This document shows, one piece after another, positions 28,865-46,634 of a stretch of DNA of 64,000 nucleotides (position 1 is the first letter of the stretch; each line of letters begins with the position of its first letter). Both the position numbers and the translations under genes were made by a program. The stretch is from Actinokineospora auranticolor (GTDB lineage: Bacteria > Actinomycetota > Actinomycetes > Mycobacteriales > Pseudonocardiaceae). The stretch is from positions 1 through 64,000 of the forward strand of contig NZ_PTIX01000011.1 of assembly GCF_002934265.1 (NCBI RefSeq), written 5' to 3'. The notes under the pieces are model-generated. The model saw only the letters and a list, made by a program, of their open reading frames with translations, had not been told where the DNA came from and did not search any database.

Positions 28865-28887
28865 TTGTCGACAATCGACAATCGACC
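28865..28887. promoter_or_regulatory. candidate GntR operator and promoter of the TldD/DUF4438 operon
   Basis: TTGTCGACAA (28865-28874) is a perfect 10-bp palindrome of the TNGTnnnACNA kind bound by FadR-type GntR proteins. It is followed by repeats of TCGACAA/TCGAC up to 28887. It lies 45 bp before the first gene of an operon whose last gene is a GntR regulator, the usual autoregulation arrangement. The assignment is by motif form and place. Confidence 0.55.
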
Positions 28888-28918
28888 TACGGTGGAAGCG
28901 GCGAGTGGAGGAGGGCCG

Positions 28919-30040
28919 ATGGACGGGCTTCGGGTTGCGGTGATCGGGGCCGGGCGGTGGGCGCAGTGGGCGCACCTGCCCGGTTGGGCGCGGGACGACC
29001 GGGTCGAGGTGGTGGCGCTGGTCGACACCGACCCGCGGGTGCTCGGCGAGGCGGCGGAGCGGTTCGGGGTGCGACGGGCCTCGACCGACTACCGGGAGGT
29101 GTTGGACGATCCCTCGATCGATGTCGTCGACGTCGCCACGGCCAACTCCGCGCACTACGAGGTGGCGGCGGCGGCGATCGAGGCGGGCAAGCACGTGTTG
29201 TGCGAGAAGCCGGTGCACCGGGATTTCCGGCGGACGCGGGCTCTCGCCGAGGCGGCCAGGGCCAAGGGGCTCAAGACGAAGCTCGGGTTCACCTTCCGGT
29301 ACGCGCCCGCGGTGCGGTACGCGAAGAGCCTCATCGACGCCGGGTTCATCGGCACGCCGTACGTGTTCAACGGGTTCGAGCAGAACAGCCAGTGGATCGA
29401 CCCGGCCACGCCGATGCGGCAGGTCGACCCCGACGCCGACCCCGCCGTGCTCGCCACCTCGTCCATCGAGGGCTACGGGGCGCCGATCATCGACATCATG
29501 CACTGGTGGGCGGGTGGGCGGTTGACCTCCGTCGTCGGGACGATGCGCAACTTCGTCCCCGAGCGGGTGGTCCAGACCACGGGGCGCAGGCAGCGGCTCA
29601 ACATCGACGACGGTGACATGTGGATCTGCGAGTTCGACAACGACCTGATCGCGTCCATCCAGTCCTCCTACGTCACGGTCGGCAACCTGCCGGGGATCGA
29701 GGCCCGCCTCTACGGCTCCGAGGGCGCGCTGATCGTGCGGCTGGTGGAGGAGTTCGGTGTCTGCCAGACGATCCGCACCGCCACCAAAGACGCCGCCGAG
29801 TACGTCGAACGCGAGGTGCCCGCCGAGTTCTTCCCCCCGGGCGGCGCGTCCACAGAGGACTGGGGTGCCCTGTTCTACGCCAACCTCTGCGCCGATTTCG
29901 CCACCGAACTCCTCGACGGCGGCGACACCAACCAGGGCGATTTCGAGCAGAGCGCGCTGGTGCAGGAGACGATCAACGCGTTCGAGGCGTCGTTCCACCG
30001 CCGCGCCTGGGTGGACTTCCCGCTCGGCGGCGCGGCGTGA
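28919..30040 (+). CDS. Gfo/Idh/MocA-family oxidoreductase
   Basis: The 373-residue NAD(P)-dependent dehydrogenase has the Rossmann start VAVIGAGRWAQWAHLPGWAR, the family motif CEKPVHRD near residue 98 (the lysine of EKP is at the active site) and the C-terminal alpha/beta domain with YGAPIIDIMHWWAGG near residue 190, whose aspartate and histidine fit the catalytic pair. It probably oxidises a cyclic or linear polyol, sugar or imine. A GGAGGAG site precedes ATG 28919. It is the first gene of a tightly overlapping operon (next start overlaps its stop as GTGA), just downstream of the GntR-type palindrome. Confidence 0.9.
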   Translation: MDGLRVAVIGAGRWAQWAHLPGWARDDRVEVVALVDTDPRVLGEAAERFGVRRASTDYREVLDDPSIDVVDVATANSAHYEVAAAAIEAGKHVLCEKPVHRDFRRTRALAEAARAKGLKTKLGFTFRYAPAVRYAKSLIDAGFIGTPYVFNGFEQNSQWIDPATPMRQVDPDADPAVLATSSIEGYGAPIIDIMHWWAGGRLTSVVGTMRNFVPERVVQTTGRRQRLNIDDGDMWICEFDNDLIASIQSSYVTVGNLPGIEARLYGSEGALIVRLVEEFGVCQTIRTATKDAAEYVEREVPAEFFPPGGASTEDWGALFYANLCADFATELLDGGDTNQGDFEQSALVQETINAFEASFHRRAWVDFPLGGAA

Positions 30041-31503
30041 GCCCGCACGGGTGGGGTGCGCTGGCCGACGACGCCACCGCCGCGGCGCTGGTGGAGGCGG
30101 CGTTGGACGCGGTCGACGGTCGGGTCGAGCACGCCGACGTGCGGCTGGTAGAGGCCGAGGAACTGCGGGTGTACCGGCAGCGCGGTGCGGACGTGGACGA
30201 GCGCGTCGAGCACACCCTCGGCATCGGCGTCCGCGTGCTGGTCGACGGCGTCTGGGGATTCGCCGCGCGTCCGTTGGCCGACAGCGCGGACGCCGTGACC
30301 GCGGCGCGCCGGGCGCACGCGCTGGCCGTGGCGGCGCGGGGCGCGTCGGAGCCGGTGCGGCTGCCGGAGCTGGAAGTCCACAGCGGACGGTACGAGACGG
30401 TCGTCGAGCAGGACCCGTTCGCCGTCGCCGAGCACACCCGGCAGGCGCTGCTGAGCGAGGCGCTGGACGCTGCGTGCGTGCCGCGGGAGGTGGTGTCCGC
30501 GCAGGTGGGGGTCAACGCCAAGCGCCAGCACCGGCACTTCGGCAACTCGGCCGGGTCGCGGCAGCACCAGCACTTCCTGGAGACCGGGGTGCTCGTGCTG
30601 GTGCTGGCCGCCGGGCACGGTGACGTGCAGCGGCGCAGCTACCCGAACTCCTTCCACGGCGACACGGCCGCGGCCGGGTGGGAGTTCGCGCTCGGGCGCG
30701 ATCTCGTCGCCAACGCGGCCCGGGTGGGCGAGGAGGCGGTGGCGCTGCTGACCGCGCCGGTCGCGCCCTCGGGCACCGCCGACGTGGTGCTCGGCGGGCA
30801 GCAGATGTCGCTGCAGATCCACGAGTCCGCCGGGCACGCCCTGGAGCTGGACCGGATCCTCGGCGACGAGGTCAACTTCGCCGGTACCTCGTTCATCGGC
30901 GTCGGCGACGTCGGCTCCCTGCGCTACGGCTCCCCCGCCGTCACCATCACCAGCGACCCGACCGTCCCGGGCACCCGCGGCAGCTTCGCGTTCGACGACG
31001 AGGGCACGCCCGCTCGCCGCCGCACCCTGGTGGGCGGGGGAATCGTCCGCGACACACTCTCCACACTGGACTCCTCAGCGCGCGCGGGCCTGCCGCTCAC
31101 CGGCGCCGCGCGCTCCGACGGGTGGGGCTGCACGCCGGTGTGCTTCGCCACGCACGTCTACCTCGAACCCGGGACCGGCACGCTCGACGAGTTGTGCGAC
31201 CGCCTGGGTGAGGGCTTCTACGCCGAGGACAACCGGTCGTGGTCCATCGACGAGCGCCGGTGGGACTTCCAGTTCGGCACCGAGGTGGCCTACGAGGTGC
31301 GCGGCGGGAAACGCGGCAGGCTGCTGAAGAACTTCTCCTATGGCGGGACCACCCCGCGGTTCTGGGGCTCGGTCGAGGCAGTCGCCGACGACCTGCGGAT
31401 CTTCGGCTACCCGTGCGGCAAGGGCGAGCCCAAGCAGTGGGGTTTCCTCAGCCACGGCGCGCCGTCCACGCTGGTGCGCGGCGTGCGGATCGGGGTGGCG
31501 TGA
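30037..31503 (+). CDS. tldD: TldD-type zinc metalloprotease subunit
   Basis: The 488-residue protein carries the TldD signature HESAGHALELDRILG (HEXXXH, near residue 267), the zinc-binding protease helix, and the glycine-rich C-terminal barrel (YGSPAVTITSDPTVPGTRGS, KNFSYGGTTPRFWGSVEAVA). In the known TldD/TldE complex the active subunit is TldD and the partner has no zinc; together they cut unfolded or small peptides threaded into a closed chamber. Here the partner follows with a one-base overlap. Start GTG 30037 overlaps the previous stop. In this operon it most likely cleaves an imported modified peptide. Confidence 0.9.
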   Translation: MSPHGWGALADDATAAALVEAALDAVDGRVEHADVRLVEAEELRVYRQRGADVDERVEHTLGIGVRVLVDGVWGFAARPLADSADAVTAARRAHALAVAARGASEPVRLPELEVHSGRYETVVEQDPFAVAEHTRQALLSEALDAACVPREVVSAQVGVNAKRQHRHFGNSAGSRQHQHFLETGVLVLVLAAGHGDVQRRSYPNSFHGDTAAAGWEFALGRDLVANAARVGEEAVALLTAPVAPSGTADVVLGGQQMSLQIHESAGHALELDRILGDEVNFAGTSFIGVGDVGSLRYGSPAVTITSDPTVPGTRGSFAFDDEGTPARRRTLVGGGIVRDTLSTLDSSARAGLPLTGAARSDGWGCTPVCFATHVYLEPGTGTLDELCDRLGEGFYAEDNRSWSIDERRWDFQFGTEVAYEVRGGKRGRLLKNFSYGGTTPRFWGSVEAVADDLRIFGYPCGKGEPKQWGFLSHGAPSTLVRGVRIGVA

Positions 31504-32825
31504 TGGGCTTCGCCGCGCCCGTCGACCCCGCCCGCGCCACCGAGCTCCTCGCTGCGGCCGTGCGCGGGGCCGCCGCCGACCACGTCGAGGTCGCGCTGCT
31601 GGCGCGTGCCGGGGAGTACACCAGGTTCGCCGGTGAACGGGTCCACCAGCCGCAGGACATCACCGAGCAGCAGGTCGTGGTGCGCGCCGTGGTCGACGGG
31701 CACGCCGCGCGGGTCGCGACCAGCGCGCTCGACCGCGTGCCCGACGCGGTCCGCCGGGCGACCGCGATCGCCCGCGACCTCGGCCGCTCGGCGCGCGGTC
31801 CCGGCTCGGCGTGGACGCCCGAGAACGCAATCAGCGACGATCACCTGCTCTGGCACGAGGACACCGCCGCCTTCGACGCGCCCGCCCGGGTGGCGATCGC
31901 CGCGCACGCCATGGCGTCGGCGCGACAGATGGGCGCCACCGCGGCGGGCATGGTCGGCCGGGCCGTGACCCAGCTCGCCGTGGCCTCGAGCACCGGTGCG
32001 CTGCGGCACGTGGTGGCGACCGAGGCCACCGGGAGTCTCACGGTCGGCGACGGGGACGGCTCCGCGCACTGGGCGAACCTGCACCGGTCCCGTGACGGGC
32101 TGGGGCTGACCCCGGCGACGGTGGCGGACGTGGTGGCCCGCGCCGTGCGCACCCGCGGCAGGAAACCGCTGCTCGACGGCGTCTACACCGTTGTGCTGGG
32201 ACCTGAGGCCACCGGGGAGCTGCTCGGGTTCCTGGGGGTGCTCGGTTTCGACGGCGGTCTGGCCGAGGCGGGTGTCGGCGTGGCCACCGGGCCGGGGCGG
32301 CGGGTGGCCTCCGAGCTGGTCACGGTGGCCGACGACGCGTCGCACCCGTTCGGGCTGCCCATCCCGTTCGACGTGTCGGGCACGTCCAAGGCCGTGGTGC
32401 CGCTGCTGACCGCCGGGCTGGTCGGCGCGGCGGTCGGCGACCGGACCGGCCACGCCCATGTGGCGCGGGAGTCGCTGCCCGCCCCGGTCGCGGCGAACGT
32501 CGTGATGGCGCCCGGTACCGACCACGACCTGGTGGCGGGTGTGGCCGACGGGCTCTACGTCGAGCGGTTCTGGTACACCCGGCTGGTCGACCGGCAGGCG
32601 AGCACGATCACCGGCGTCAGCCGCGACGCGTGCTTCCGGATCGTGGACGGCACGCTGGCCGAGCCCGTGCGGGGTGCCCGGTTCACCCAGTCCGTTTTCG
32701 ACCTGCTGACCACGGTGGACGGTGTGGGCGCGGAGTTGCGGGCGCAGCCCATCATGAACGTGTGGAACGGGTCGGTCACCGCGCCCGCGATCCGCGCGCA
32801 CGGCTTCCGGTTCGGCTCCCGGTGA
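31503..32825 (+). CDS. pmbA: PmbA/TldE-type partner subunit
   Basis: The 440-residue protein is the TldE/PmbA partner: similar fold, no HEXXXH motif, with GEYTRFAGERVHQPQDITEQ near residue 40, TVVLGPEATGELLGFLGVLG near 230 and the C-terminal VMAPGTDHDLVAGVADGLYV region. The TldD stop and this ATG share one base (TGATG), so the two subunits are made in step. It lacks a separate catalytic role in known complexes. The next gene begins inside its stop (GTGA). Confidence 0.9.
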   Translation: MGFAAPVDPARATELLAAAVRGAAADHVEVALLARAGEYTRFAGERVHQPQDITEQQVVVRAVVDGHAARVATSALDRVPDAVRRATAIARDLGRSARGPGSAWTPENAISDDHLLWHEDTAAFDAPARVAIAAHAMASARQMGATAAGMVGRAVTQLAVASSTGALRHVVATEATGSLTVGDGDGSAHWANLHRSRDGLGLTPATVADVVARAVRTRGRKPLLDGVYTVVLGPEATGELLGFLGVLGFDGGLAEAGVGVATGPGRRVASELVTVADDASHPFGLPIPFDVSGTSKAVVPLLTAGLVGAAVGDRTGHAHVARESLPAPVAANVVMAPGTDHDLVAGVADGLYVERFWYTRLVDRQASTITGVSRDACFRIVDGTLAEPVRGARFTQSVFDLLTTVDGVGAELRAQPIMNVWNGSVTAPAIRAHGFRFGSR

Positions 32826-33628
32826 TCCCGCGCAGCAACGCCGATCGGCTGCTGACCCAGGTCCTGGTGGGCGAGGTCTGCCCGCCGCTGGGCGACCGCT
32901 TCGGCTACCGCGTCGACGCCGAGGGGCGGCCGTTCCTGCTGCCCGGTATGGGCGGGGTCACCCTCGGTGTGCGGGTCGGCGACCCGGCCACGGGCCACGC
33001 CGCCGACCACCTCGAGCCCGGCCTGTCGGTGTGGCACCCAGACCCGGCGGCCAACCACGCGCTGCAGTACCTGACGTGCGTCGGCAACGAGGTGACCGTG
33101 CTCGTCGAGGGGCGCCCGAGGGGACGGGTCCTCGGCCAGCACGCCTATGTCCTGGTGGACCTCGATGACGCGGCGGCGGTCGCGCCGGGCGACCGGGTGG
33201 CGATCCGGGCTCGCGGGCAGGGGCTGCGACTGCTGGACCACCCCGAGGTCGGCGTGCGGAACCTCGACCCGGACCTGCTGCCGCGACTGCCGGTGGAGAC
33301 CGCGCCGGACGGGCGGCTGCGGGTGCGGGTCGCCGCCCGGGTGCCGTCGTCGGCGGTCGGCGCGGGGGCGGGCATGGTGTCGGAGTTCGCCAACACCGAC
33401 CTGATGGGCCGCGTCGACTTGCGGATCGGTGATCTCGTCGTGCTGCTGGACCAGGACCACCGCTTCGGCCGCGGCCACCGCGCCGGGTACGTGGCGATCG
33501 GGGCGATCAGCACCGGCGACTGCCGGTTGTTCGGTCACGGACCAGGACCCAGCACGCTGCTCACCGGCCCCGCCGCGGCCTTCGACCTCGTCGACGACCC
33601 CACCGCGAACCTCGGAGCCGCCTGGTGA
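32822..33628 (+). CDS. DUF4438 family protein, copy 1
   Basis: The 268-residue protein matches the DUF4438 family: RVDAEGRPFLLPGMGGVTLG, a VRVGDPATG segment, HLEPGLSVWHPDPAANHALQ, the TCVGNEVTVLVEG segment, RARGQGLRLLDHPEVGVRNL and the C-terminal HGPGPSTLLTGP. The function is unknown; the repeated charged loops and the conserved HGPG end suggest an enzyme or ligand-binding barrel. Start GTG 32822 overlaps the PmbA stop. A diverged second copy follows in a GTGA overlap, so the two may form a heteromer. Confidence 0.85.
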   Translation: MIPRSNADRLLTQVLVGEVCPPLGDRFGYRVDAEGRPFLLPGMGGVTLGVRVGDPATGHAADHLEPGLSVWHPDPAANHALQYLTCVGNEVTVLVEGRPRGRVLGQHAYVLVDLDDAAAVAPGDRVAIRARGQGLRLLDHPEVGVRNLDPDLLPRLPVETAPDGRLRVRVAARVPSSAVGAGAGMVSEFANTDLMGRVDLRIGDLVVLLDQDHRFGRGHRAGYVAIGAISTGDCRLFGHGPGPSTLLTGPAAAFDLVDDPTANLGAAW

Positions 33629-34416
33629 ACACCCTGGTCCGGACCACGTTGCTCGGTGTCGTCGAGACGCCGCGCCTGGGCGCCACCCCGTACCTGATCG
33701 ACCGCGACGGCCTGCCGTACGTGCCGACGGCGACCGGCGGCGTCGTGCTGGGGCTGCGCCTGGGCGACGGCGTGTTCGACGTCGACGCCGACCACGCGGC
33801 GCCCGGTGTCACGCTCACGCATCCCGACCCGGCCGCCAACCACGCGCTGACGGCGTTCGCCTGCCTGGGCAACGCCGCGGTGGTGCGCACCGGGGACGCG
33901 CGCGGCGCGACCGGGCGGGTGCTGGGCAAGCGCGAGGGCCGGGTGATCGTGGTGTACCCGCAGGACGTGCTGGCGCGGATGGTGCCCGGCGACCAGGTCG
34001 CGGTCCACGCGCACGGCCAGGGTGCGGTGGGTTCGCTCAACGTGGACCCCGCGCTCCTGCCCGCCCTGCGCGGCCGGTCGGTGCGCGCTCGCGTGCCCTC
34101 CCACCTGGTGGGCAACGGGTTCGGGCGCCCGGCGCACCAGTGGGACCTGGACCTGCAGGTGGGCCCGGCGGAGGCGGCGCACTGGCGGCTGGGTGATCTG
34201 GTATGCATTGACGACGTCGACGTCCGGCACAACGCCGGGCGCAGGGAAGGGTGGTCGACCGTGGCGGTGCTGGTCCACGCCGGGAGCCCGCTGCCCGGCC
34301 ACGGTCCCGGCGCGATGCCGGTCCGGTGCGGACCGACGGCGGAGATCGACGTGCGGGTGGACCCCGTCGGCCATGTGGGAGTGACGCCGGAGCTGCTGGG
34401 GTGCCCCGGTGCCTGA
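33625..34416 (+). CDS. DUF4438 family protein, copy 2
   Basis: The 263-residue paralogue of the preceding gene keeps the family landmarks in the same order: LIDRDGLPYVPTATGGVVLG, HAAPGVTLTHPDPAANHALT, AFACLGNAAVVRTGDARGAT, VHAHGQGAVGSLNVDPALLP and HGPGAMPVRCGP. Overall identity to copy 1 is low outside these blocks, so the pair is old and probably divided in function. Start GTG 33625 overlaps copy 1; the GntR gene begins 8 bp before its stop. No known catalytic motif can be named. Confidence 0.85.
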   Translation: MNTLVRTTLLGVVETPRLGATPYLIDRDGLPYVPTATGGVVLGLRLGDGVFDVDADHAAPGVTLTHPDPAANHALTAFACLGNAAVVRTGDARGATGRVLGKREGRVIVVYPQDVLARMVPGDQVAVHAHGQGAVGSLNVDPALLPALRGRSVRARVPSHLVGNGFGRPAHQWDLDLQVGPAEAAHWRLGDLVCIDDVDVRHNAGRREGWSTVAVLVHAGSPLPGHGPGAMPVRCGPTAEIDVRVDPVGHVGVTPELLGCPGA

Positions 34417-35044
34417 CCTGGAACACCTGTCGCTGCCCGACACGGTGCACCGGCTGCTGCGCACCCGCATCCTCAACAACGAACTGCCCTCGGGCACCCG
34501 CCTCATCGAGGCGTCGATCGCCGAGGAGCTGGGCGTCAGCCGCGCGACGGTCCGCGCCGCCCTCGCCCGGCTGGCGGGTGAGGGCCTGGTCGAGATCAGC
34601 CCGCGCAGGCACAGCATCGTGACGCGACTGTCCCACGAGGACATCCAGGACGCCTGCTACGCCCGCTATGTGCTCGAAGAGGGCGCGGTGCGGGCCGTGC
34701 TGGCCCACGGCGCCGCCGAACTGGTGGACCCGCTCACCGAGTTGGTCGCGCGGATGGAGCACGCCGCGCGCGACCGGGACCTGGCGGTGATGGTCGACCT
34801 GGACACCGCCTTCCACGGGAGTCTGGTGGCTGCCGCCCGCAAGCCGCGGTTGGCCCGGTTGTTCGCGGGCATGGACGCGCAGATGGGCGCGGTGATGCGG
34901 TCCTCGCTCGAGGAGCAGCACCTCGACCTGGCCGAGATGCCCCGCATGCACCGGGACCTGGTGGACGCCTTGGCCGGCGGCGACCCGGCACTCGTCGCGT
35001 CCACGCTCTACCGGCACTACCTGCGCGAGGACTACGTGCTCTGA
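34409..35044 (+). CDS. GntR-family regulator, FCD (FadR) subfamily
   Basis: The 211-residue regulator has the GntR winged helix at residues about 10-70 (RTRILNNELPSGTRLIEASI, AEELGVSRATVRAALARLAG, GLVEISPRRHSIV) and an all-helical FCD effector domain with its metal ligands in DLDTAFHGSLV, MHRDLVDALAGG and LYRHYLRED. It closes the operon and overlaps the gene before it by eight bases. The palindrome at 28865 upstream of the operon is its likely operator, and the inducer is probably the operon's substrate or an intermediate. Confidence 0.9.
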   Translation: MPDLEHLSLPDTVHRLLRTRILNNELPSGTRLIEASIAEELGVSRATVRAALARLAGEGLVEISPRRHSIVTRLSHEDIQDACYARYVLEEGAVRAVLAHGAAELVDPLTELVARMEHAARDRDLAVMVDLDTAFHGSLVAAARKPRLARLFAGMDAQMGAVMRSSLEEQHLDLAEMPRMHRDLVDALAGGDPALVASTLYRHYLREDYVL

Positions 35045-35089
35045 GTCGCTGCGGTCGGTCGGAGCGGGCACCGGGTCGTCGCACGGCAC

Positions 35090-35580
35090 CAGCGCGTCAA
35101 CGGTCGCTCGGGGTGCGTCGGTCCCGCTGCGAGATCGTCCCATCGAGGTGGGCACTTCCGCCCACCGCCCCTGTTCGCGCAGGTACCGGCTGAGAAGAGC
35201 CCGCACCACCGCGCGAGTGTCCGCTGTCGACTCCGACTGTTCTCGGGCGAACTCGCGGAGCAGGTCGTGGAAGCGGTATCGGCGTTGTCCCGCCGAGTCG
35301 GACTGCCCATGGCCATCTTCCAGGAGTTGCGCGTCGACCAGTCGGTCGATCACCGCGCGACCGCCGCTGCCCGACGTGACGCCGAGCGCGACAGCTGACC
35401 CGCGCGTCATCGCCGCTCGCCGCGCTCAGTACGTCCAGCGGCCGTTCCCGGCGTGGCTGGTCGGCCAGCCGGGCCTGCGACTGCCGGGGCCGTGTCGCCA
35501 GGACCGCGCCCGCCATCCGGATGGTGATCGGCAGTCGGCAGGTGGCCGCAGAGCCGGGCGGAAGTCGGGGAGTGTGGTGG
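35090..35580 (-). pseudogene. AfsR/SARP-type NB-ARC regulator remnant
   Basis: Minus-strand frames spell a middle piece of an NB-ARC regulator: CRLPITIRMAGAVLATRPRQ and a SQARLADQPRRERPLDVLSA stretch near 35550-35450, then after a frameshift near 35410 the winged-helix part VIDRLVDAQLLEDGHGQSDS, RYRFHDLLREFAREQSESTA and VRALLSRYLREQG. The DNA-binding, P-loop and TPR parts are absent. Such proteins control secondary metabolism; this one is dead. It lies between the GntR gene and the minus-strand transporter operon. Confidence 0.7.
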
Positions 35581-35599
35581 ACGTGCGGGGTGCCCATGG

Positions 35600-37845: not shown

Positions 37846-37883
37846 GTCGGTGTCTCCCTCTGCTGTCGAGTGGTCCAGGTGGT

Positions 37884-39908
37884 TCACGGCCGCGCCCAGT
37901 GGCAGGCCACGCCGTCCAGCAGCGCGGGCACCTCCCCGGCGCACCGGGCGCGTTGCGCGTCGGTCAACCCGCCCAGGTACTCGGGGCACCGGGTGCGGAA
38001 CCGGCAGCCCGACGGCGGGTCCACCGGGCTGGGTACGTCGCCGGTCAGCACGATCCGCTCGCGGGCCCGTTCCTTGCGCGGGTCGGGCAGCGGCACCGCC
38101 GAGACGAGTGCGCGCGTGTACGGGTGGCGCGGGTGGTCGAACACCGCGTCGCGGTCCCCGGTCTCCACCACCCGCCCCAGGTAGAGCACGGCCACGCGGT
38201 CGGCGATGTGGCGCACCACCGACAGGTCGTGGGCGATGAACAGGTACGCCAGCCCCAGCGCGTCCCGCAGGTCCTCCAGCAGGTTGATCACATCGGCCTG
38301 CACGGACACGTCGAGGGCGGACACCGGTTCGTCGAGCACCAGCACCCGGGGCCGCAGGGCCAGGGCGCGGGCGATCCCGATGCGCTGGCGCTGACCACCG
38401 GAGAACTCGTGCGGGTAGCGCTCGGACCCCGCCCCCGACAACCCCACCGACCGCAGCAGCTCCAGCGCCCGGACCCGCGCCTCGCGGCGGCCGGTCCCGT
38501 TGACCCGCAGCGGTTCCGCGACGAGGTCGGCCGCGGTCATCCGCGGGTCCAGGGAGTTCATCGGGTCCTGGAACACGATCTGCAGGTCCCGGGCGTGCCC
38601 GCGGCGCGCCAGTGGTTCACCGTCGAGCAGCACCCTGCCGCCGGTCGGGTCCTCCAGGGACATCAGCAGTCTCGCGATGGTCGACTTGCCCGAGCCGGAC
38701 TCGCCGACCAGCCCCAGCGTCTCCCCCGTCGACAGGTCGAACGACACGTCGCACACCGCGTGCAACTCGCCCCGGTCGCGGCGGAACAGGCCCGCGCCGC
38801 GCACCCGGTAGTGCTTCACCAGCCCGGCCGCGGTGACGATCGGCGTGGCCTGCTCGGCCACGGGCGTGTCCGGCGGCAGGGGCGCGGGGCGCGGTGGGAA
38901 CACGTCCTCCGGGCGCCTGTCGACGAGGTCGGCGCTGAAGTGGCAGGCGGCCAGGTGTTCGCCGTCGACCGGCGCCAGAGGTGGCTCCTCGGTGCGGCAC
39001 AGATCGGTGGCCAGCGGGCACCTCGGCGCGAACGCGCACCCCGTGATGGGCCGGTCCAGCGCGGGCGGGGTGCCCGCGACGGGGGTCAGCCGTGCGTCCC
39101 GGGCGCCGTCGAGGCGGGGCAGGCTGCCCAGCAACCCCAGGGTGTACGGCATGCGCGGGGTGTAGAAGACCTCCTCGACCGTGCCGGACTCCACGACCTT
39201 GCCCGCGTACATCACCACCACCCGGTCGGCCTGCCCGGCGACCACACCGAGGTCGTGGGTGATGAGCACGGTCGCCGCGCCGGTCTGCTCGCGGGCGGTG
39301 CGCAGCGCGTCGAGGACCTGGGCCTGGATGGTGACGTCCAGCGCGGTGGTGGGCTCGTCGGCGATGATCACGTCCGGGTCGTCGGCCATGGCGATGGCGA
39401 TCACCACGCGTTGGCGCATCCCGCCGGAGAACTCGTGCGGGTAGTCCGCGACCCGGTCGCGCGCGTTGGGGATGCCGACCAGCTCCAGCAGCGCGATCGC
39501 GCGCTCGACGGCCTCCTCGCGGCCCAGGCCGGGGTGGTGCGCCCGCACCGCCTCGGCGACCTGGAACCCCACCGAGTAGACGGGGTTCAGCGCGGAGAGC
39601 GGGTCCTGGAACACCATCGCCACGGACCGGCCGCGCACCGCGGCCAGCTCGTCGTCGCGCAGCCCGAGCAGTTCGCGGTCGCGGAACCGGACCGATCCGC
39701 CGACCCGCGCGCCGTGCGGCAGCAGCCCCATCACCGCGAGCGCGGTCGCGGACTTGCCGCACCCGGACTCGCCGACCACGCCGAGCACCTCCCCCGCCCG
39801 CAGCGACCAGGACACCCCGCGCACGGCGGTCACCCGGCCGCGCTCGTCGGGGAAGGACACGGTGAGGTCGTGGACGCCGAGCACCTCGGTCGTCGCCTGC
39901 CGGGTCAT
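37884..39908 (-). CDS. double ABC ATPase of a dipeptide/oligopeptide importer (DppD-DppF fusion)
   Basis: The 674-residue protein carries two complete ATPase domains in one chain. Domain 1: Walker [14 protein letters not shown], signature FSGGMRQRV, Walker [13 protein letters not shown]. Domain 2 (from about residue 350): [35 protein letters not shown]. Each ends with the Cys-rich C-terminal motif of peptide-type importers ([14 protein letters not shown] and [13 protein letters not shown]), which can hold an iron-sulfur cluster in some members. ATG 39908 overlaps the permease stop (ATGA). Fusion of the usual two subunits is common in actinomycetes. Confidence 0.92.
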
Positions 39909-40801
39909 CGCCTGCTCCGGGACCGGGTGTTGTCGAAGGCGTCGCGCAGCCCGTCGCCGATGAAGTTGACGCTCAGCGCGATGAGCACGATGAACAGGCC
40001 GGGGAAGTAGAACAGCCACGGCCGGGTGGCCACCGCGGTCTGGTTCTGGCTGATCAGCAGCCCCAGCGAGGTGTCCGGCGGGCGCACCCCGAAGCCGATG
40101 AACGACAGCGCCGTCTCGGCCAGGATCGCGACCGCCACGATGATGGTCACCGCGACGATGATCGTGCCCAGCGCGTTGGGCAGCACGTGCCGGAAGATGA
40201 TCCGCCACGAGCCCGCGCCGAAGGTGCGCGCGGCGGCGATGAACTCGCGCTCGCGCAGCGACAGCACCAGGCCGCGCACCAGCCGGGCGACGTAGGGCCA
40301 GGTGAGGGCGGCCAGCACCAGGCCGATCAACAGCCAGCCCTGGCTGGAAGCGCCGACGTTGTTGGCCAGCACGGCCGCCACCGCGATCGCCGGGAAGATC
40401 AGCACCAGGTCGGCGACGCGCATCATCAGCGTGTCGACCTTGCCGCCGTGCAGCCCGGCCACCGCGCCCCACACGCTGCCGAACACCCCGGACACCGCGG
40501 CCACGAACAACGCGATCTCGACCGACCGCTGCGTGCCGCGCAGCACCTGGGCCAGCAGGTCGTAGCCGGTGGCGTCGGTGCCGAACGGGTGCTCGAGCGA
40601 CGGCGGGTGGGAGTTGTCGGGGGTGTACACGTCGTAGGAGTAGTGCCACAGCGCGCCGCCGACGAACGCCAGCAGCACCAGCAGCAGAAAGACGACCAGG
40701 CTGGCGGTGGCGAGCCGGTGGCGCAGGAACCGGCGCGCCACCAGCCGCCACCGGGGGGTGGCGACCGGCACGTCGCCGCCCGCCCGCGTGATCTCAACCA
40801 A
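39905..40801 (-). CDS. DppC-type ABC permease
   Basis: The 298-residue permease has the OppC N-terminal helix (LATASLVVFLLLVLLAFVGG), the outside loop SLEHPFGTDATGYDLLAQVL and the EAA loop EREFIAAARTFGAGSWRIIF that docks on the ATPase. About six transmembrane helices are visible. I read the start as TTG 40801, inside the end of the previous gene by eight bases; no better start lies before the first helix. It pairs with the DppB-type permease to form the channel of the importer. Confidence 0.9.
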   Translation of the reverse strand: MVEITRAGGDVPVATPRWRLVARRFLRHRLATASLVVFLLLVLLAFVGGALWHYSYDVYTPDNSHPPSLEHPFGTDATGYDLLAQVLRGTQRSVEIALFVAAVSGVFGSVWGAVAGLHGGKVDTLMMRVADLVLIFPAIAVAAVLANNVGASSQGWLLIGLVLAALTWPYVARLVRGLVLSLREREFIAAARTFGAGSWRIIFRHVLPNALGTIIVAVTIIVAVAILAETALSFIGFGVRPPDTSLGLLISQNQTAVATRPWLFYFPGLFIVLIALSVNFIGDGLRDAFDNTRSRSRR

Positions 40802-41771
40802 GGCGAACCCTCCTGTCCAGCACGGCGTAGAGCAGATCGGCGACGAGGTTGAACACCACGACGATCACCGACACCAGCAGCAGCCACGCCATCACGGCGT
40901 AGATGTCCTTGTCCCGCACCGCGGACAGCAGGAACGAGCCCATGCCGCGCCACTGGAACACGGTCTCGGTGACCACCGCGCCGGAGAACAGCACGGCCAG
41001 GTCCAGCGCCACGACCGTGGTCAGCGGCACCAGCGCGGTGCGCAACGCGTGGCGCACCAGCACTTTTCGCCGCTTGATCCCCTTGGCGCGGGCCAACCGC
41101 ACGTAGTCGCTCTCCTGCACCTCGATCATCGAGGACCGCACGAACCGGCTCCACGGCGGGAAGGCGGTCATGGCCAGCACGATGGTCGGGAGCACCAGGT
41201 GGCCCAGCACGTCCGCCACGGTCGGCCAGAACCCGGTCGGCGGTGGGATGGAGGCCTCGCCGACCGTGTAGACCAGGGTGGACCCGGTGGCCTGGTTGAG
41301 GTCGATCGCCTGCTGCTTGAGCAGGATCGCGAGCCAGAACGCGGGCATCGACAGCAGCAGGAACCCGATGGCGGTGAACGCGTAGTCCACCGCGGAGTAC
41401 CGCTTGACCGCGCTGACCACGCCGACCACCAGGGCCAGCGCCAGCGCGAGCAGCACGGCGAGGGTCACCAGGCGGGCCGAGACCCACAGCCGGGGCCAGA
41501 TCTCCGCGCCGATGTCGATCTTCTTGACCGACGGGCCCCAGTCGCCGCGCGGGATGCCGGTCAGCCAGTGCCAGTACCGTTCCAGCACCGGCTGGTCGAG
41601 CCGCATCCGGTGCGCCTCGGCGTCCAGCACCGCCCTGGGCACCGGCGGCTGCTTGGCCTTGAGGTCGCCGAGCGGGTCGCCGGACGCGCTGACCATGACG
41701 AACGTGATGAACGAGCCGACCAGCACGATCGGGACCGCGTGCAGCAACCGCCGCAACACGTAAGCCAACAT
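40794..41771 (-). CDS. DppB-type ABC permease
   Basis: The 325-residue permease begins with the OppB/DppB signature LAYVLRRLLHAVPIVLVGSF, continues with a loop RMRLDQPVLERYWHWLTGIP and the EAA loop VRLARAKGIKRRKVLVRHAL, and ends VADLLYAVLDRRVRLG. It differs from typical members in a longer first outer loop. It lies 52 bp after the binding-protein gene. With the DppC-type subunit it forms the transmembrane pore. Confidence 0.9.
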   Translation of the reverse strand: MLAYVLRRLLHAVPIVLVGSFITFVMVSASGDPLGDLKAKQPPVPRAVLDAEAHRMRLDQPVLERYWHWLTGIPRGDWGPSVKKIDIGAEIWPRLWVSARLVTLAVLLALALALVVGVVSAVKRYSAVDYAFTAIGFLLLSMPAFWLAILLKQQAIDLNQATGSTLVYTVGEASIPPPTGFWPTVADVLGHLVLPTIVLAMTAFPPWSRFVRSSMIEVQESDYVRLARAKGIKRRKVLVRHALRTALVPLTTVVALDLAVLFSGAVVTETVFQWRGMGSFLLSAVRDKDIYAVMAWLLLVSVIVVVFNLVADLLYAVLDRRVRLG

Positions 41772-41823
41772 CGCTGCCTGCCTTCCCCTGGGGTGGCGCG
41801 GGTCGGGCGACCCGCGCCACGCG

Positions 41824-43533
41824 TCAGCCGGTGATGCCCCACTCGCCGCCGTTGTACGGCGGCCCGAAGTAGGTGCCGTTGGCCCGGACGTTGACCAGGT
41901 TCGCCTTGTACACCAACAGGTCTGGCACCTGGTACAGCGGCAGGATGTAGGCGTCCTCGGTCAGTTGCGCGTCCACCCCGTTGAGGAACCCGGCGACCTG
42001 GGTCTCGTCGGTGGCGCGCAGCGCCTTGGTGAGCAGGTCGTCCACGACCGGGCTGGAGTAGCCGCCGAAGTTCAGGCCCGCCTTGGTCATGAACGCCTGC
42101 GAGTACTGGGAGGCCAGGAACGTCTGCCCGATCCAGCCCATCGCGAACAGGTCGAAGTCCTTGCCCGCCTGGTGGGTCACGGTCGCGCCGACCGAGTCGG
42201 TGGTCTGCACGTCCACCGTCACGCCGAGCTTCTTGGCGGTGTCGGCGAACAGTTGGCACACCGTCTGCAGGATCTGGTTGTTCTGGATGTAGCGCATCGT
42301 CAGCGGCGGGACCGGCGTGCCCCTGGGATCGATGAGCCTGCCCGCGTCGATCTTGTAGCCCGCGTCGGTGAGGATCGAGGTGGCCTTGGCGACGTCGCCG
42401 GTGCCCAGCGTGCCCAGGTTGTCCTTGTAGCCGGGCTGCTGCGGTACGTAGATCCGGTTGCGCAGCGGCCGGGCGTCGGAGGTGAGCTGGCCGACGGTCT
42501 TGCCGATGGTCTGCCCGACGTCCATCGCGGTGAACAACGCCTTGCGCAGTACGGGATCCCGCATGGCGGGGTTGTTCAGGTTGGGCAGGATCATCTGCTT
42601 GCGCAGCCCCTGCACGAGTTGGTACTTCACGCCGCCGAGCGCCTGCACGTTGCGCAGCAGGTCGACCTGCGGGTCCGGGTTGATGATCTGGACCTCGTTG
42701 TTCTGCAGCGCGGGCACCTCCTGCGAGGTGTCGGTGATGACGCGGAACACCAGGCTGTCCACCGTGACCGGCTTGCCCCACCACTTCGGGTTGGGCACGA
42801 GCGTGGCGGCCTGGTTGGTCTCCCAGGACTTGAACATGAACGGGCCGCCGGACCAGTCGGGGAAGGAGTCCTTGTAGCGGAACCCGTCGTTGAACGAGGT
42901 GGCCAGGCCCTCGGGGGTGCCGTCGTCGCCGAGTTTTCGGGCGACGTGCGCGGGCAGGATCGGGCCGAACAACGACTTCCAGTCTCCGAACGGCTCGCTG
43001 AGGGTCACCGTGACCGTGCGCCCGTCGTCCGTGCCGACCAGGGAGGTGATGTGGTCGTAGCCCATCGTGGAGGCGGCCTCGCACTTCGGGCACAGCTTGG
43101 GGTCGGAGGCGCGCCGGACGTAGTCGAAGTCGGCCGCGGTGATCGGGGTGCCGTCGTTCCACACCGCCTTGGGGTTGATCTTGTACACCAGTGTCTGCGG
43201 TGCTGTGCCGGTCTGCTCGGCGCTGACCAGCAGGTCCTTGTTGAGCTCGACGGTCTTCAGGTCGGGCAGGGTGACGAACGGGGCCGGGTCGTAGACGTCG
43301 GCGACCAGTTGGGTGGCCACGCCGATGTCGGCCCCGAGCGGGTTCCAGTTGACGATGTTGCGTTCCAGGACGTAGGTGATCGTGCCGCCCTGCTTCGCCG
43401 TGCCGGTGTTGACCGTGTTGGGATCACCCGTGACCAGGTTGCCCGTGTCGGCGCCGCCCCCCGGGGTGCCGGTGGAACAGGCGGTCACCACCGCGGCGAC
43501 GGCGAGTACGGCGGAAATCTTTCGACCTTTCAT
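41824..43533 (-). CDS. solute-binding lipoprotein of the peptide-type importer (SBP family 5)
   Basis: The 569-residue receptor has a lipoprotein signal (ISAVLAVAAVVTAC, lipidated Cys near residue 18), a flexible Gly/Thr-rich linker, then the family-5 fold: GGTITYVLERNIVNWNPLGA, TLVYKINPKAVWNDGTPITA, ADFDYVRRASDPK and a C-terminal lobe ending LPLYQVPDLLVYKAN. Two cysteines in LCPKCEAAS may form a disulphide. Start ATG 43533 is preferred over 43545 because GGAG lies just before it. It is the first gene of the minus-strand operon and would set the substrate range; family 5 takes di- and oligopeptides, nickel chelates and sugars, so the ligand is not certain. Confidence 0.9.
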   Translation of the reverse strand: MKGRKISAVLAVAAVVTACSTGTPGGGADTGNLVTGDPNTVNTGTAKQGGTITYVLERNIVNWNPLGADIGVATQLVADVYDPAPFVTLPDLKTVELNKDLLVSAEQTGTAPQTLVYKINPKAVWNDGTPITAADFDYVRRASDPKLCPKCEAASTMGYDHITSLVGTDDGRTVTVTLSEPFGDWKSLFGPILPAHVARKLGDDGTPEGLATSFNDGFRYKDSFPDWSGGPFMFKSWETNQAATLVPNPKWWGKPVTVDSLVFRVITDTSQEVPALQNNEVQIINPDPQVDLLRNVQALGGVKYQLVQGLRKQMILPNLNNPAMRDPVLRKALFTAMDVGQTIGKTVGQLTSDARPLRNRIYVPQQPGYKDNLGTLGTGDVAKATSILTDAGYKIDAGRLIDPRGTPVPPLTMRYIQNNQILQTVCQLFADTAKKLGVTVDVQTTDSVGATVTHQAGKDFDLFAMGWIGQTFLASQYSQAFMTKAGLNFGGYSSPVVDDLLTKALRATDETQVAGFLNGVDAQLTEDAYILPLYQVPDLLVYKANLVNVRANGTYFGPPYNGGEWGITG

Positions 43534-43782
43534 GCTGCTCCACATCTCTCAACGATGGGGCGGATCGAGGTCATCAGAGTGAACAGGCGAGTTCGCGGGA
43601 ATGGCAAGCAACAATCGGTGAAGCCCCCCGTTAAGACCTGCTAATCGCGGTCCGAGCTGGGGATGTGTGCGTCAAGCAAACGTAACCGGGCGCGTTGCCG
43701 AACTCTGTCTTGTGCTCGGCGATCGGGTCTGCACAGAATCCGTCGACCGAATGTTGCGCGCAATGGACATCAGGAGGGAAAT
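43534..43782. promoter_or_regulatory. divergent promoter region of the importer and hydrolase operons
   Basis: This 249-bp gap must hold both promoters. TTGCGCGCAA at 43754-43763 is a perfect palindrome 10 bp before the AGGAGGGA ribosome site of the plus-strand operon, a place for a repressor. A LysR regulator closes that operon and could bind here; the link is a guess. No GntR-type palindrome like that at 28865 was seen. Confidence 0.4.
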
Positions 43783-44712
43783 ATGCCGACACTCGCGGAG
43801 ACGATCGAGTGGAACGATCACCCGGTTGCCTCGTCACTGGCCTACGGCACCGTCGACGTGCGGATCGGGACGGTCGGGCACGGCGGCCCGGTCGGGTTGG
43901 TCGTGGCGAGCGTGCACGGCGACGAGGGCCCCTGGGGCACCCTCGCGGTCAACCGCCTGCTGGCCTCCGTGCGGCGGGAGGAACTGCTCGGCACGCTGCG
44001 GGTCGTGCCCGTGGCGCACCCGCTGGCGACCGAGGCCGACGCCCGCCAGACCCACCTGGACCTGCTCGACCTCAACAGCTCCTTCCCCGGCGACCCCGGC
44101 GGCTCGCACACCCAGCGACTGGCCGCGGTGCTGGCCGAGCACGCGGTCGACGGCGCCGACGTGGTGCTCGACGTGCACGGCGGCGGCAGCTGGAACATCA
44201 ACTGCTTCACCTACCGGTTCCCCGGCAGCGAGCACGTGGCCGAGTGGATGGGCACCCCGCTGATCCTCGACGGCCCCGACCGCGCGTCCAGCCTCACCGG
44301 GTACGCCCGCGTGCGCGGCGCGGTCGCGGTGTGGATCGAGATGGGCGGGCGCGGCGAGTTCGAAGAGGACAGAGCCGCCACCGTCACCCGCGGCCTGCGC
44401 CGGGCCCTGGGCAAGGCAGGCGTGCTGACCGAGGCCGACCTGCCCGACGAGCCGGGCACGCCCGCCACCGGCAAGCTGCCGCTGTCGACCTCCCGGCCGG
44501 GCATCTACCAGCCGGTGCTGCGCGAGTCCGCGCTCGGCACCGTGGTCGAGGGGGGCACGGTCGTCGGCCACCTGCTCGACCCGGTGTCCAACGAGGTCCT
44601 GGAGACCTTCCGCGCGCCGTTCCCGCGCACCGCGCTCGCCCTGCTGCGCCCCACCCTGGCCCGGATCGAGTCGCCCGGCCAGGTCGTCGCCCTCGTCGCC
44701 GAGATCGTTTAG
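43783..44712 (+). CDS. succinylglutamate desuccinylase/aspartoacylase-family zinc hydrolase
   Basis: The 309-residue M14-like enzyme has the zinc ligands His and Glu in VVASVHGDEGPWGTLAVNRL (near residue 48), the third His in VVLDVHGGGSWNIN (near 130) and a candidate catalytic Glu in AVAVWIEMGGRGEFEED (near 190). A beta-barrel tail follows. Such enzymes remove N-acyl groups from amino acids or act on related amides. A strong AGGAGGGA site precedes ATG 43783. As first gene of the divergent operon it would open up an acylated or amide-linked amino acid brought in by the importer. Confidence 0.88.
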   Translation: MPTLAETIEWNDHPVASSLAYGTVDVRIGTVGHGGPVGLVVASVHGDEGPWGTLAVNRLLASVRREELLGTLRVVPVAHPLATEADARQTHLDLLDLNSSFPGDPGGSHTQRLAAVLAEHAVDGADVVLDVHGGGSWNINCFTYRFPGSEHVAEWMGTPLILDGPDRASSLTGYARVRGAVAVWIEMGGRGEFEEDRAATVTRGLRRALGKAGVLTEADLPDEPGTPATGKLPLSTSRPGIYQPVLRESALGTVVEGGTVVGHLLDPVSNEVLETFRAPFPRTALALLRPTLARIESPGQVVALVAEIV

Positions 44713-44722
44713 GAGAACCAGG

Positions 44723-45460
44723 ATGATCGACCCCACCGGCCGGTTCGCCATCGTGGCGGGCAACGCCGAGGACATCGGCCACGCCGTCGCCCGCGAGCTG
44801 GCCGCCGCGGGCATGACCGTGGCGGTGCTGTGCGACCAGGCCGACGCCGTGCGTGCGCTGGCCGAGGAAGTGCCGTCCGCGCACGCGTTCGTCACCGACT
44901 TCACCGACGCGGACGCGCTGCGCGCCGCCACCGAAGAGGCGGTGCGGCGGTTCGGCACGCCCCGCCTGGTCGTGCACAACTCGGCGGTGTTCCGCGAGGT
45001 CCCCGTGCTGGAGCTCGACGTCGCGGCGTTCAAGGCCGAGTCCGACAGCATCCTGCAGAGCGCGTTCGTGCTGGCCAAGGCGGTGTGGCCGCACATGGTC
45101 CAGGCGCGGGACGGCAGCATCGTGTTCGTCTCGTCGGGCTCGGCGCTGTCGGGCTTCGCAGGCGAGGCCGCCTACGTCGCGGGCAAGCACGGACAGGAAG
45201 GGCTGATGAAGGTGCTCGCGCTGGAGGGAAAGGAGTACGGCGTCGCCGTCAACACCATCACCACCGGCGCGCCCATCGACGGCCCGCTGGCCTACACCTA
45301 CACCGATGCCCTGCGCGCGGTGATGGTGCCGCCGTCGCGACTGGCGCCCGCGTTCGCGTTCCTGGCCGGGATCGACGCCGACTTCGCCACCGGCCAGCGG
45401 TTCAACGCCTTCCAACTCTCCGAAGCCATCCGAACCACCCGGGAAGGGGTGTCCGCGTGA
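44723..45460 (+). CDS. short-chain dehydrogenase/reductase, copy 1
   Basis: The 245-residue SDR has the catalytic Ser in FVSSGSALSGFAGE and Tyr-Lys in AAYVAGKHGQEG (YxxxK). Its cofactor loop reads VAGNAEDIGHAVA, in which the second glycine of TGxxxGxG is replaced by Asp, so cofactor use may be altered. HNSAVFREVPV matches the NAG region only loosely. It starts 10 bp after the hydrolase with AGGAG at its ATG and overlaps the second SDR (GTGA). The last third is nearly identical to copy 2, including 70 identical bases. Confidence 0.88.
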   Translation: MIDPTGRFAIVAGNAEDIGHAVARELAAAGMTVAVLCDQADAVRALAEEVPSAHAFVTDFTDADALRAATEEAVRRFGTPRLVVHNSAVFREVPVLELDVAAFKAESDSILQSAFVLAKAVWPHMVQARDGSIVFVSSGSALSGFAGEAAYVAGKHGQEGLMKVLALEGKEYGVAVNTITTGAPIDGPLAYTYTDALRAVMVPPSRLAPAFAFLAGIDADFATGQRFNAFQLSEAIRTTREGVSA

Positions 45461-46197
45461 TCGACATCAACGGCAAGGTCGCCTTCCTGACCGGTGCCGC
45501 CGAGGGGCTGGGCCGCGAGATCGCGCGGGAGCTGGTCGCGGGCGGCATGCGCGTGGCGATGGTGGACGTGCAGGGCGAGAAATTGACCGCGCTGGCCGAG
45601 GAGTTGCGCGCCGACGGCGCGGACGTGCTGCCGCTCGTCGTGGACCTGGCCGATCCCGTGGCCGCGGCGGACGCGGTCGAGCTGGCACTGGCGCACTACG
45701 GCACGCCCCGGGTGCTGATCCACAACGCCGCGGTCCTCAAGGAAGTGTCCATGTTGGACGTGACCTTCGAGGACTGGCGGCGCGAAGTCGACATCATCCT
45801 CGGCGCGGCCTACGCGCTGACGAAAACCGTCTGGCCGCACATGGTCCAGGCGCGGGACGGAAGCATCGTGTTCCTGTCCTCGGGGTCCGCGCTGTTCGGC
45901 TTCGTCAAGGAGACCGCGTACACGCCGGGCAAACACGCGCAGGAAGGGCTGATGAAAGTACTGGCGCTGGAGGGGAAGGAGCACAACATCGCGGTCAACA
46001 CCACCTCCACCGGCCGTCCCATCGACACACCCATGTCGGACTCCCACTACACCGAGGAGATGCGGATCGGGATCGTGCCGCCGTCCCGGCTGGCGCCCGC
46101 GTTCGCGTTCCTGGCCGGGATCGACGCCGACTTCGCCACCGGCCAGCGGTTCAACGCCTACCAGCTCTCCGAGGCGATCCGGGTGACCCGCGGATGA
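45457..46197 (+). CDS. short-chain dehydrogenase/reductase, copy 2
   Basis: The 246-residue paralogue has a canonical cofactor loop TGAAEGLGREIARELV, the HNAAVLKEVSM segment, the Ser in FLSSGSALFGFVKE and Tyr-Lys in TAYTPGKHAQEG. It therefore looks like the fully active partner of copy 1, and the two may form a heterotetramer. Start GTG 45457 overlaps copy 1. The RidA gene starts within its stop (ATGA). The substrate is unknown; context suggests an alcohol or ketone made during breakdown of the imported compound. Confidence 0.9.
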   Translation: MIDINGKVAFLTGAAEGLGREIARELVAGGMRVAMVDVQGEKLTALAEELRADGADVLPLVVDLADPVAAADAVELALAHYGTPRVLIHNAAVLKEVSMLDVTFEDWRREVDIILGAAYALTKTVWPHMVQARDGSIVFLSSGSALFGFVKETAYTPGKHAQEGLMKVLALEGKEHNIAVNTTSTGRPIDTPMSDSHYTEEMRIGIVPPSRLAPAFAFLAGIDADFATGQRFNAYQLSEAIRVTRG

Positions 46198-46559
46198 TCC
46201 CGCCCGCGGGCCACTACCAGCCGTTCGTGCGCGCGGGCGACACCGTCCACGTGTCCGGACAGGTGCCGCGCCTGCCGGACGGCGGCTACGAGCCCGCCGA
46301 CGTGGCCACCGAGACCGCGCTGGCACTGCGCAACCTCACCGCGGTCGTGCGCGCGGCGGGCGGCGACCTGACCGACGTGGTGAAGGTGACCGCGTACCTG
46401 ACCGACGCGGCCGACTTCGCCGAGTTCGACCGGGCCTACGCCGCCCACTTCGGCGAGTGGAAGCCGGCCCGCACGACGGTCGTCGTCGGGCTGCGGTCGG
46501 TGAAGGTCGAGGTGGACGCGGTACTGCACTTGCCGTTGACGATCGATGGCGGTGCGTGA
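46194..46559 (+). CDS. RidA-family enamine/imine deaminase
   Basis: The 121-residue protein has the RidA fold landmarks VRAGDTVHVSGQVPRLPDGG, VVKVTAYLTDAADFAEFDRA and the carboxylate-binding Arg in FGEWKPARTTVVVGLRS, plus an acidic residue near the C-terminus (VEVDAVLHLP). RidA proteins hydrolyse reactive enamines and imines released by PLP enzymes and amine oxidation. It overlaps the SDR stop and fits with the aminotransferase coded on the other side of the promoter. Confidence 0.9.
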   Translation: MIPPAGHYQPFVRAGDTVHVSGQVPRLPDGGYEPADVATETALALRNLTAVVRAAGGDLTDVVKVTAYLTDAADFAEFDRAYAAHFGEWKPARTTVVVGLRSVKVEVDAVLHLPLTIDGGA

Positions 46560-46634
46560 CAGTTGCCCGGATCGTGCCGGTGTTGTGCCAGGATGACCCC
46601 TGGCGGCGGGTACGGAGAGTGAGGTGACGCCGGC

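Follow-up and report, generated by a model that had tools for sequence, protein, structure and literature searches.

A recurring gene cluster around paired DUF4438 proteins in Actinokineospora auranticolor: a candidate uptake-and-catabolism module

Gene content and organization of the locus

We analysed a stretch of 64,000 nt from Actinokineospora auranticolor (assembly GCF_002934265.1, contig NZ_PTIX01000011.1, positions 1 to 64,000; hereafter the window), part of a genome of 8.43 Mb in 61 contigs, where it lies on contig 11, and focused on a block of about 17 genes that includes two proteins of the DUF4438 family. The block consists of three runs of genes, 28919-35044 on the plus strand, 35600-43545 on the minus strand and 43783-46559 on the plus strand, and a LysR gene extends it to 47546. 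The original prediction, made from the letters alone, had proposed three operons encoding a TldD/PmbA protease, two DUF4438 proteins, a peptide-type importer, an aspartoacylase-like hydrolase, an aminotransferase, dehydrogenases and RidA. This layout was recovered, and all of the named families were confirmed at their positions by matches above the Pfam cut-offs.

The first run starts with a Gfo/Idh/MocA oxidoreductase gene (28919-30040, +; PF01408, E 6.8e-26), 5′ of which an operator-like site, CAGTTGTCGACAATCGACAATCG (28862-28884, no strand assigned), is conserved in five Actinokineospora and one Saccharothrix. It continues with a TldD-type metalloprotease subunit carrying a HESAGH motif (30091-31503, +; PF19289, E 5.9e-37; start at 30091 or 30103), a PmbA/TldE-type partner without HExxxH (31500-32825, +; PF19289, E 3.9e-23), DUF4438 protein a (32822-33628, +; PF14505, E 1.2e-39; PF20999, E 7.3e-28), DUF4438 protein b (33625-34416, +; PF14505, E 1.4e-28; PF20999, E 1.2e-15) and a GntR/FCD regulator (34409-35044, +; PF00392 and PF07729). 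From TldD through GntR, neighbouring genes overlap by a few bases.

The second run, on the minus strand, encodes a family-5 solute-binding protein (SBP), a probable lipoprotein related to EppA (41824-43545; PF00496, SBP_bac_5, E 6.8e-54; 6wm6, E 1.9e-102), a DppB-type permease (40794-41771; PF00528, E 5.4e-38), a DppC/OppC-type permease (39905-40801; PF00528, BPD_transp_1, E 6.5e-29; OppC_N, E 3.1e-12), a fused double ATPase DppD-DppF, one polypeptide in which ABC_tran and oligo_HPY each match twice (37884-39908), a class I/II aminotransferase (36619-37845; PF00155, E 1.2e-48; ATG at 37845, with the open frame extending to 37989) and a D-2-hydroxyacid dehydrogenase (35600-36622; PF02826, 2-Hacid_dh_C, E 8.2e-48; start at 36622 or 36610). 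Between these convergent operons the original prediction had placed a dead gene, which is plausible: the minus strand of 35045-35600 contains stops in all three frames, and only about 220 bp separate the two operons in the relative G012. Frame 1 of this region includes RRYRFHDLLREFAREQ, which we take to be AfsR/NB-ARC-like, and the region is plausibly a decayed remnant of such a regulator; the open reading frame (ORF) 35097-36452 (−), which lies over it, gave no Pfam match.

The third run consists of an AstE/AspA-family hydrolase, distantly DoeB-like (43783-44712, +; PF24827, AstE_AspA_cat, E 1.4e-20, 74.1 bits against a gathering score of 25), two short-chain dehydrogenases/reductases (SDR 1, 44723-45460, +, PF00106, E 6.5e-36; SDR 2, 45457-46197, +, PF00106, E 3.4e-42), a RidA-family protein (46194-46559, +; PF01042, Ribonuc_L-PSP, E 9.8e-26) and the LysR regulator (46635-47546, +; PF00126 and PF03466), the last gene of the conserved block. 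For the hydrolase, hereafter AspA, the longest ORF runs from 43663, and the start codon at 43783 agrees better with where the matches of two relatives begin (at residue 36-40 for G011 and 7-8 for G003). Its structure matches include 3cdx (E 1.4e-18) and DoeB 6twm (E 2.6e-15). In G003 (C26:108217-109254), the AspA match crosses one TGA within the aligned range.

The three operons form a single heritable unit within Actinokineospora

The block is collinear between the window and G012 from 28827 to 47547 at 94% identity, with the LysR gene inside and with differing flanks. The gene order is likewise kept in G003 and G011, each with one extra SDR-like stretch (L014:143-814; L016:4795-5370, −) that separates the aminotransferase from the importer ATPase and is missing from the window. 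In G009 the contig ends after GntR and AspA is found on a separate contig. The flanks differ in the other relatives too, except that in G009 parts of window 49191-53150 match about 10 kb before the module.

DUF4438 was detected in five of 16 genomes of the genus, and orthologues of AspA (80-100% identity) and of TldD (81-100%) in exactly the same five and in none of the other 11; if the five were picked at random, ignoring ancestry and linkage, this agreement would have a chance of 1/4368. The three operons are thus a single heritable unit, in support of the original prediction, and their distribution among the 16 congeners is all-or-none.

In the 39 kb of G012 that were compared, the sole other window match is 63639-64000 (L019:13738-14099, 89% identity), which directly follows LysR in G012 and lies 16 kb from the module in the window; this suggests an insertion or rearrangement next to the module. 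Elsewhere in the window, caspase-like, nSTAND1 and WD40 matches fall in a pair of overlapping ORFs at 20554-23839, which may be a single STAND protein that has been split or frameshifted. Two ORFs of very large size, at 2777-12101 (−) and 14661-15572 (+), match RHS repeats (barely above cut-off) and FG-GAP repeats and have an IS110-type transposase near by.

The cluster recurs in other lineages

A scan of a genome collection with a DUF4438 alignment returned 27 loci, from Actinomycetota, one Bacillota metagenome-assembled genome (MAG) and two Devosia MAGs; a plasmid collection gave no match to either DUF4438 query. From the genome scan we inspected 25 loci, mostly actinobacterial, together with some 10 kb of flank on either side as far as the contig reached, a set that includes four Actinokineospora, close pairs and shortened contigs and in which contig-cut loci were scored as misses, and compared them with 20 control stretches of 20 kb from only three relatives' genomes. 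Neighbours were counted by tblastn on DNA, because gene calling at high G+C gave wrong-frame ORFs.

Beside DUF4438, GntR was detected in 24 of the 25 loci, Gfo in 23, DppB and DppC in 21 each, a Dpp ATPase in 20, PmbA in 19, TldD in 18, SBP in 17, the D-2-hydroxyacid dehydrogenase in 16 and the aminotransferase in 12, followed by a second Gfo (7), RidA and a luciferase-type monooxygenase (5 each), and AspA, SDR and LysR (2 each). The controls contained a Dpp ATPase in five cases, DppB, DppC, SBP and M24 in one each, and none of the other families including DUF4438. The clustering is therefore not due to chance, and a regular order, SBP-DppDF-DppC-DppB-Gfo-TldD-PmbA-DUF4438a-DUF4438b-GntR, is found for instance in L027, L030 and L034. 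Of six tested genomes, each gave two DUF4438 matches apart from one, G063, which gave four. An even class-level sample of 394 genomes yielded six with a match, five of them above cut-off and all five with two copies. One of these is the window's own genome and another lies at the same place as L041. The other three were inspected: G809 has SBP-DppBCD-Gfo-TldD-PmbA-DUF4438a-b-GntR on one strand, without matches to the D-2-hydroxyacid dehydrogenase or aminotransferase; G653, on a short contig, has PmbA, the DUF4438 pair, GntR, a luciferase and an aminotransferase; and G684 has PmbA and the DUF4438 pair at a contig end, with none of the other families over the 13 kb beyond.

Linkage around DUF4438 is thus supported in Actinomycetota, in one Bacillota MAG and, as described below, in the Devosia family. 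Of the partners whose recurrence the original prediction proposed to check, TldD, PmbA and the binding protein are frequent in the 25 loci and the aspartoacylase-like hydrolase is scarce there, as is RidA. This variability of AspA, SDRs and RidA would suit a reading in which several independent catabolic operons became neighbours by accident, as would the conserved blocks in the divergent promoter region of operons 2 and 3, which differ from the operon-1 site. However, the all-or-none distribution in the 16 congeners, the collinearity of the block within different flanks and the presence, in other lineages, of the importer, the D-2-hydroxyacid dehydrogenase or the aminotransferase in a same-strand run with DUF4438 make such an accident very unlikely.

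The DUF4438 pair and the importer are the steadier core, and TldD/TldE is replaceable

TldD went undetected in seven of the 25 loci (L028, L029, L037, L040, L041, L042 and L043); L028 is cut inside PmbA, and some of the rest sit on short contigs. Outside the locus, a TldD was found in the genomes of L029, L040, L041, L042 and L043, but only a distant one (30-35% identity), and in that of L037 there is none. In the Devosia family, where 17 of 136 genomes had a DUF4438 match (16 above cut-off), we inspected three loci of one form and five of another; TldD was undetected in all eight, five of which carry M24 peptidases, and the seven genomes behind them gave no TldD match anywhere, although MAGs may be incomplete.

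Form 1 (L046, L047, L128) has a Dpp ATPase, a D-2-hydroxyacid dehydrogenase and the DUF4438 pair in all three loci, an aminotransferase in two and RidA in one; in L047 the pair is followed by DUF1028. In form 2 (L123-L127) the pair is followed by Ldh_2, an M24 peptidase, an amidohydrolase and an aminotransferase, in some loci with a second amidohydrolase and Dpp ATPases, and a divergent arm encodes an M32 carboxypeptidase, an aminotransferase, a VOC protein, a DoeB-like AspA (four of five loci) and a deacetylase; L125 adds an M14 peptidase. L126 also contains ureidoglycolate-lyase-like and DapA-like genes, below the NCBIfam cut-offs.

TldD/TldE is therefore replaceable, and the steadier core is the DUF4438 pair together with a Dpp-type importer, often accompanied by Gfo, the 2-hydroxyacid dehydrogenase and the aminotransferase. 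The original prediction had set the DUF4438 proteins at the centre and had the TldD/PmbA chamber protease cut the backbone; this protease is not the constant part. That unrelated peptidases and dehydrogenases surround the same pair would point to amide- or peptide-bond chemistry.

The TldD-like protein of the window has its HExxxH motif, HESAGH, at residue 240 and aligns with E. coli TldD (5nj5, E 1.6e-23); the PmbA-like protein lacks the motif and gave only chance-level matches against the PDB. Against the NCBIfam TldD equivalogs the former scores 99.6 bits (cut-off 635) and 74.1 bits (cut-off 513), so that it is a member of the superfamily rather than an orthologue of the housekeeping TldD. 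Homologues of PmbA/TldD occur in lincosamide clusters. TldD/TldE are reported to cleave the microcin B17 precursor (PMC5810440) and to remove leader peptides from ribosomally synthesized and post-translationally modified peptides (RiPPs). Two further readings of the block draw on these activities. Resistance or detoxification, that is, uptake and inactivation of a peptide-like antibiotic instead of its use as food, seems unlikely to us, since an importer, an aminotransferase, dehydrogenases and RidA would exceed the needs of inactivation and no resistance family was found in the Pfam matches of the scanned ORFs (PADLOC and resistance libraries were not searched). A role in biosynthesis, as part of a natural-product or RiPP cluster, we consider highly improbable: no NRPS, PKS or RiPP cyclase appears in the Pfam matches of the 38 scanned window ORFs (not all ORFs; precursor peptides were not sought), the transporter is an importer because it has a binding protein, and importer genes open the gene run in many loci.

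Structure and conserved residues of DUF4438

Both DUF4438 proteins of the window contain both Pfam domains, PF14505 and PF20999, above the gathering score. The predicted model of DUF4438a (mean pLDDT 92.9) superimposes on TM1086 (3dcl_D) with a Z score of 38.3 and an rmsd of 1.8 Å over 266 residues at 39% identity. Beyond TM1086, the listed structural matches were confined to about 70 residues of F1/V-ATPase subunits, their N-terminal barrel (Z 8-9), which we take to be a common small barrel and not a functional hint; further folds were absent from the list but may exist. Although structures have been solved, no paper on the function of DUF4438 was found in the open-access literature.

In an alignment of 48 DUF4438 sequences, D62, G88, N89, G203 and D204 are among 15 invariant columns. 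H63 and H239 are kept in 30 of 30 first or single copies, whereas one or both are changed in four of 18 second copies (H239L in L020b, H63S in L029b, and H63C with H239Y in L124b and L126b), a contrast with p ~0.016 if relatedness is ignored. This pattern hints at a putative site that is kept in DUF4438a and dispensable in DUF4438b.

An operator-like palindrome at the start of the first cluster gene in several lineages

The site 5′ of Gfo that is common to five Actinokineospora and one Saccharothrix has the consensus TTGTCGACAATCGACAATCG with the palindromic core TTGTCGACAA. This 10-base core was derived from these two genera only and then sought elsewhere at ≤1 mismatch. In L030, L035, L040, L044 and L045 it was found where the first cluster gene, that of the binding protein, begins, and likewise in L020, where a Dpp ATPase gene precedes that of the binding protein; in L041 and L042 it lies just inside the called binding-protein frame. 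Controls had 12 such sites in 400 kb, none exact. A 16-base form, extended after the results of the core search, which itself used a core fixed beforehand, scored at least 13/16 in 13 of 23 start regions compared with one of 720 control stretches of 550 bp. Several loci leave some doubt about where the first gene begins. The search covered 400 bp ahead of the longest called frame and its first 150 bp; in L030 and L040 the palindrome sits 32 and 4 bp inside this frame. An operator-like site is thus present in several lineages.

GntR/FCD regulators are associated with operators of the TTGT-N2-ACAA type, and GntR, being more constant in these neighbourhoods than any gene but the DUF4438 pair, is the likely binder of the palindrome. 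No second match to the operon-1 palindrome at ≤1 mismatch precedes operons 2 or 3 in the window; these share a divergent promoter region with conserved blocks unlike the operon-1 site, where a LysR site is possible.

Importer types and the likely substrate

Among solved structures, 6wm6, identified as the EDTA-binding EppA (PMC7312458), is by far the nearest to the window's binding protein (347 bits; next 173). According to that report, the cationic EDTA contacts are Arg56, Arg74, Lys470 and Arg480; by our alignment reading only Arg56 is kept in the window protein, with Gln, Gln and Gly at the other three positions. An EppA-type ligand was therefore rejected, and a tetra-anionic chelator appears unlikely. 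Luciferase-like enzymes bear on a broader version of this idea, catabolism of an aminopolycarboxylate or metallophore-like chelator: the monooxygenase EmoA of EDTA degradation belongs to this type, and Bac_luciferase genes occur in some DUF4438 clusters (the five of 25 loci above). The same report (PMC7312458) puts the EDTA importer and the degrading enzymes in one operon and names the FMNH2-dependent monooxygenase EmoA. Models of nickel and staphylopine importers match weakly, far below cut-offs. Yet no luciferase-type gene was found in the Actinokineospora and Saccharothrix loci, which are those that use the EppA-like protein, and together with the lost contacts this makes chelator catabolism quite unlikely.

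At least three lineages of binding proteins are paired with the module. For the main lineage, represented by L041, the closest solved relative is 8upi (36% identity), whose title, with aminoserine as ligand, may hint at an L-amino-acid amide as ligand class. For the aminotransferase, Gfo and the dehydrogenase, the nearest solved structures gave no substrate hint. We infer a small amino-acid-derived amide or peptide-like compound as substrate, possibly a class rather than one molecule.

Discussion

The familiar architecture of importer, hydrolases, dehydrogenases and regulator is here arranged around DUF4438, and the cluster looks real and uncharacterised. A literature search, limited to open access and thus mostly excluding subscription journals, turned up no description of such a pathway, in line with the original prediction. 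As judged from gene families and their context, the block is probably dedicated to the uptake and catabolism of a small amino-acid derivative that is amide- or peptide-like. Import of the compound would fall to the family-5 binding protein and DppBC-DF, and TldD/TldE, or in one Devosia-family form M24, M32 and M14 peptidases and amidohydrolases, would break amide or acyl bonds, as would the DoeB-like AspA hydrolase where present. The DUF4438 pair may act as a heteromeric enzyme on the key intermediate, in which DUF4438a would keep the conserved Asp-His / His site and DUF4438b could lose it. Gfo/Idh, the 2-hydroxyacid dehydrogenase and the aminotransferase would interconvert hydroxy, oxo and amino acids, RidA would remove imines, and the GntR/FCD regulator would control the operon via the CGATTGTCGACAATCG-type palindrome.

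Several observations weigh against this interpretation. DUF4438 also works outside the module, because Bacillota mostly carry lone single copies in varied settings: of the 56 of 398 Bacillota genomes with DUF4438, 53 have one copy and three have two, and in 14 inspected neighbourhoods (L109-L122; 12 single, and two paired, L119 and L120) Gfo, TldD, PmbA, GntR, DppB and DppC were found in none, an aminotransferase in three and an ABC ATPase match in two, with no consistent partner. Only the third paired genome (L045) carries the module, and pairing does not always predict it. The window's TldD branch also exists apart from the module, because five genomes of other families, among 61 relatives, hold a TldD of 42-44% identity and have no DUF4438 match. 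AspA and RidA are rare among the 25 loci (2 and 5). Of the four second copies with altered histidines two are close relatives, and 14 of 18 keep both. Cores with ≤1 mismatch are also found at unrelated positions, including an exact copy in L043, and ten of the 23 loci stay below 13/16 (L027, L029, L032, L034, L038, L041, L042, L047, L048 and L149, of which L048 was tested at an edge gene and L149 not at the first gene), the site-negative clusters including Asanoa, Dactylosporangium, Hamadaea and Paractinoplanes. Finally, the importer lineages paired with DUF4438 differ, and so the substrate may differ too; over the parts aligned by BLAST, the window's binding protein and the main type are 22-25% identical.

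A more far-reaching proposal, which we put forward tentatively, is that DUF4438 could be an unrecognised enzyme family that works as a paired heteromer, one site of which is intact and the other partly degenerate, at the committed step in the degradation of an overlooked amide- or peptide-like soil metabolite, and that across Actinomycetota, Bacillota and Alphaproteobacteria the pair is retained and the peptidases and importers around it are swapped. If true, this would constitute a new catabolic route and a pointer to the function of a family that is found in the sampled Bacillota at the frequency given above. In any case, the recurring neighbourhood places DUF4438 in a definite context and supplies a candidate regulator site as well as a few conserved residues.

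Comparison with known systems

The module shares single elements with several described systems. As in ectoine degradation by DoeA/DoeB, its AspA hydrolase is distantly DoeB-like, and so is that of the Devosia family, but against TIGR02994 they reach only 59.9 bits (window) and 96.6 bits (Devosia family) at a cut-off of 402.7. As no DoeA-type M24 hydrolase is among the Pfam matches of the window's cluster either, an ectoine catabolic cluster was rejected. The binding protein is homologous over 543 residues to EppA of the EDTA importer of Chelativorans BNC1, from which it differs in three of the four EDTA-contacting cationic residues, and the window's enzymes differ as well. The periplasmic peptide-binding protein of Mesorhizobium AP09 (8upi, aminoserine-bound by its title) is nearest to the L041-type protein, whereas the window's own importer is of another type. 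The TldD/TldE heterodimer is matched in the adjacency of the two subunits, in the HExxxH motif of the TldD-like and its absence from the TldE-like partner, and in a Cys-Gly-Lys that aligns with the near-C-terminal one of E. coli TldD. It is different in that the window's TldD is 30-36% identical to the TldD of most other genomes and 42-44% to five, and its partners suggest a small-molecule substrate. For TM1086 of Thermotoga maritima (3dcl, 3n99), the open-access literature yielded no text beyond its crystals, whose asymmetric unit exceeds 1 MDa (PMC2661377). The DUF4438a model shares the fold of TM1086 over its whole length, and the window differs from it in having two diverged DUF4438 copies.

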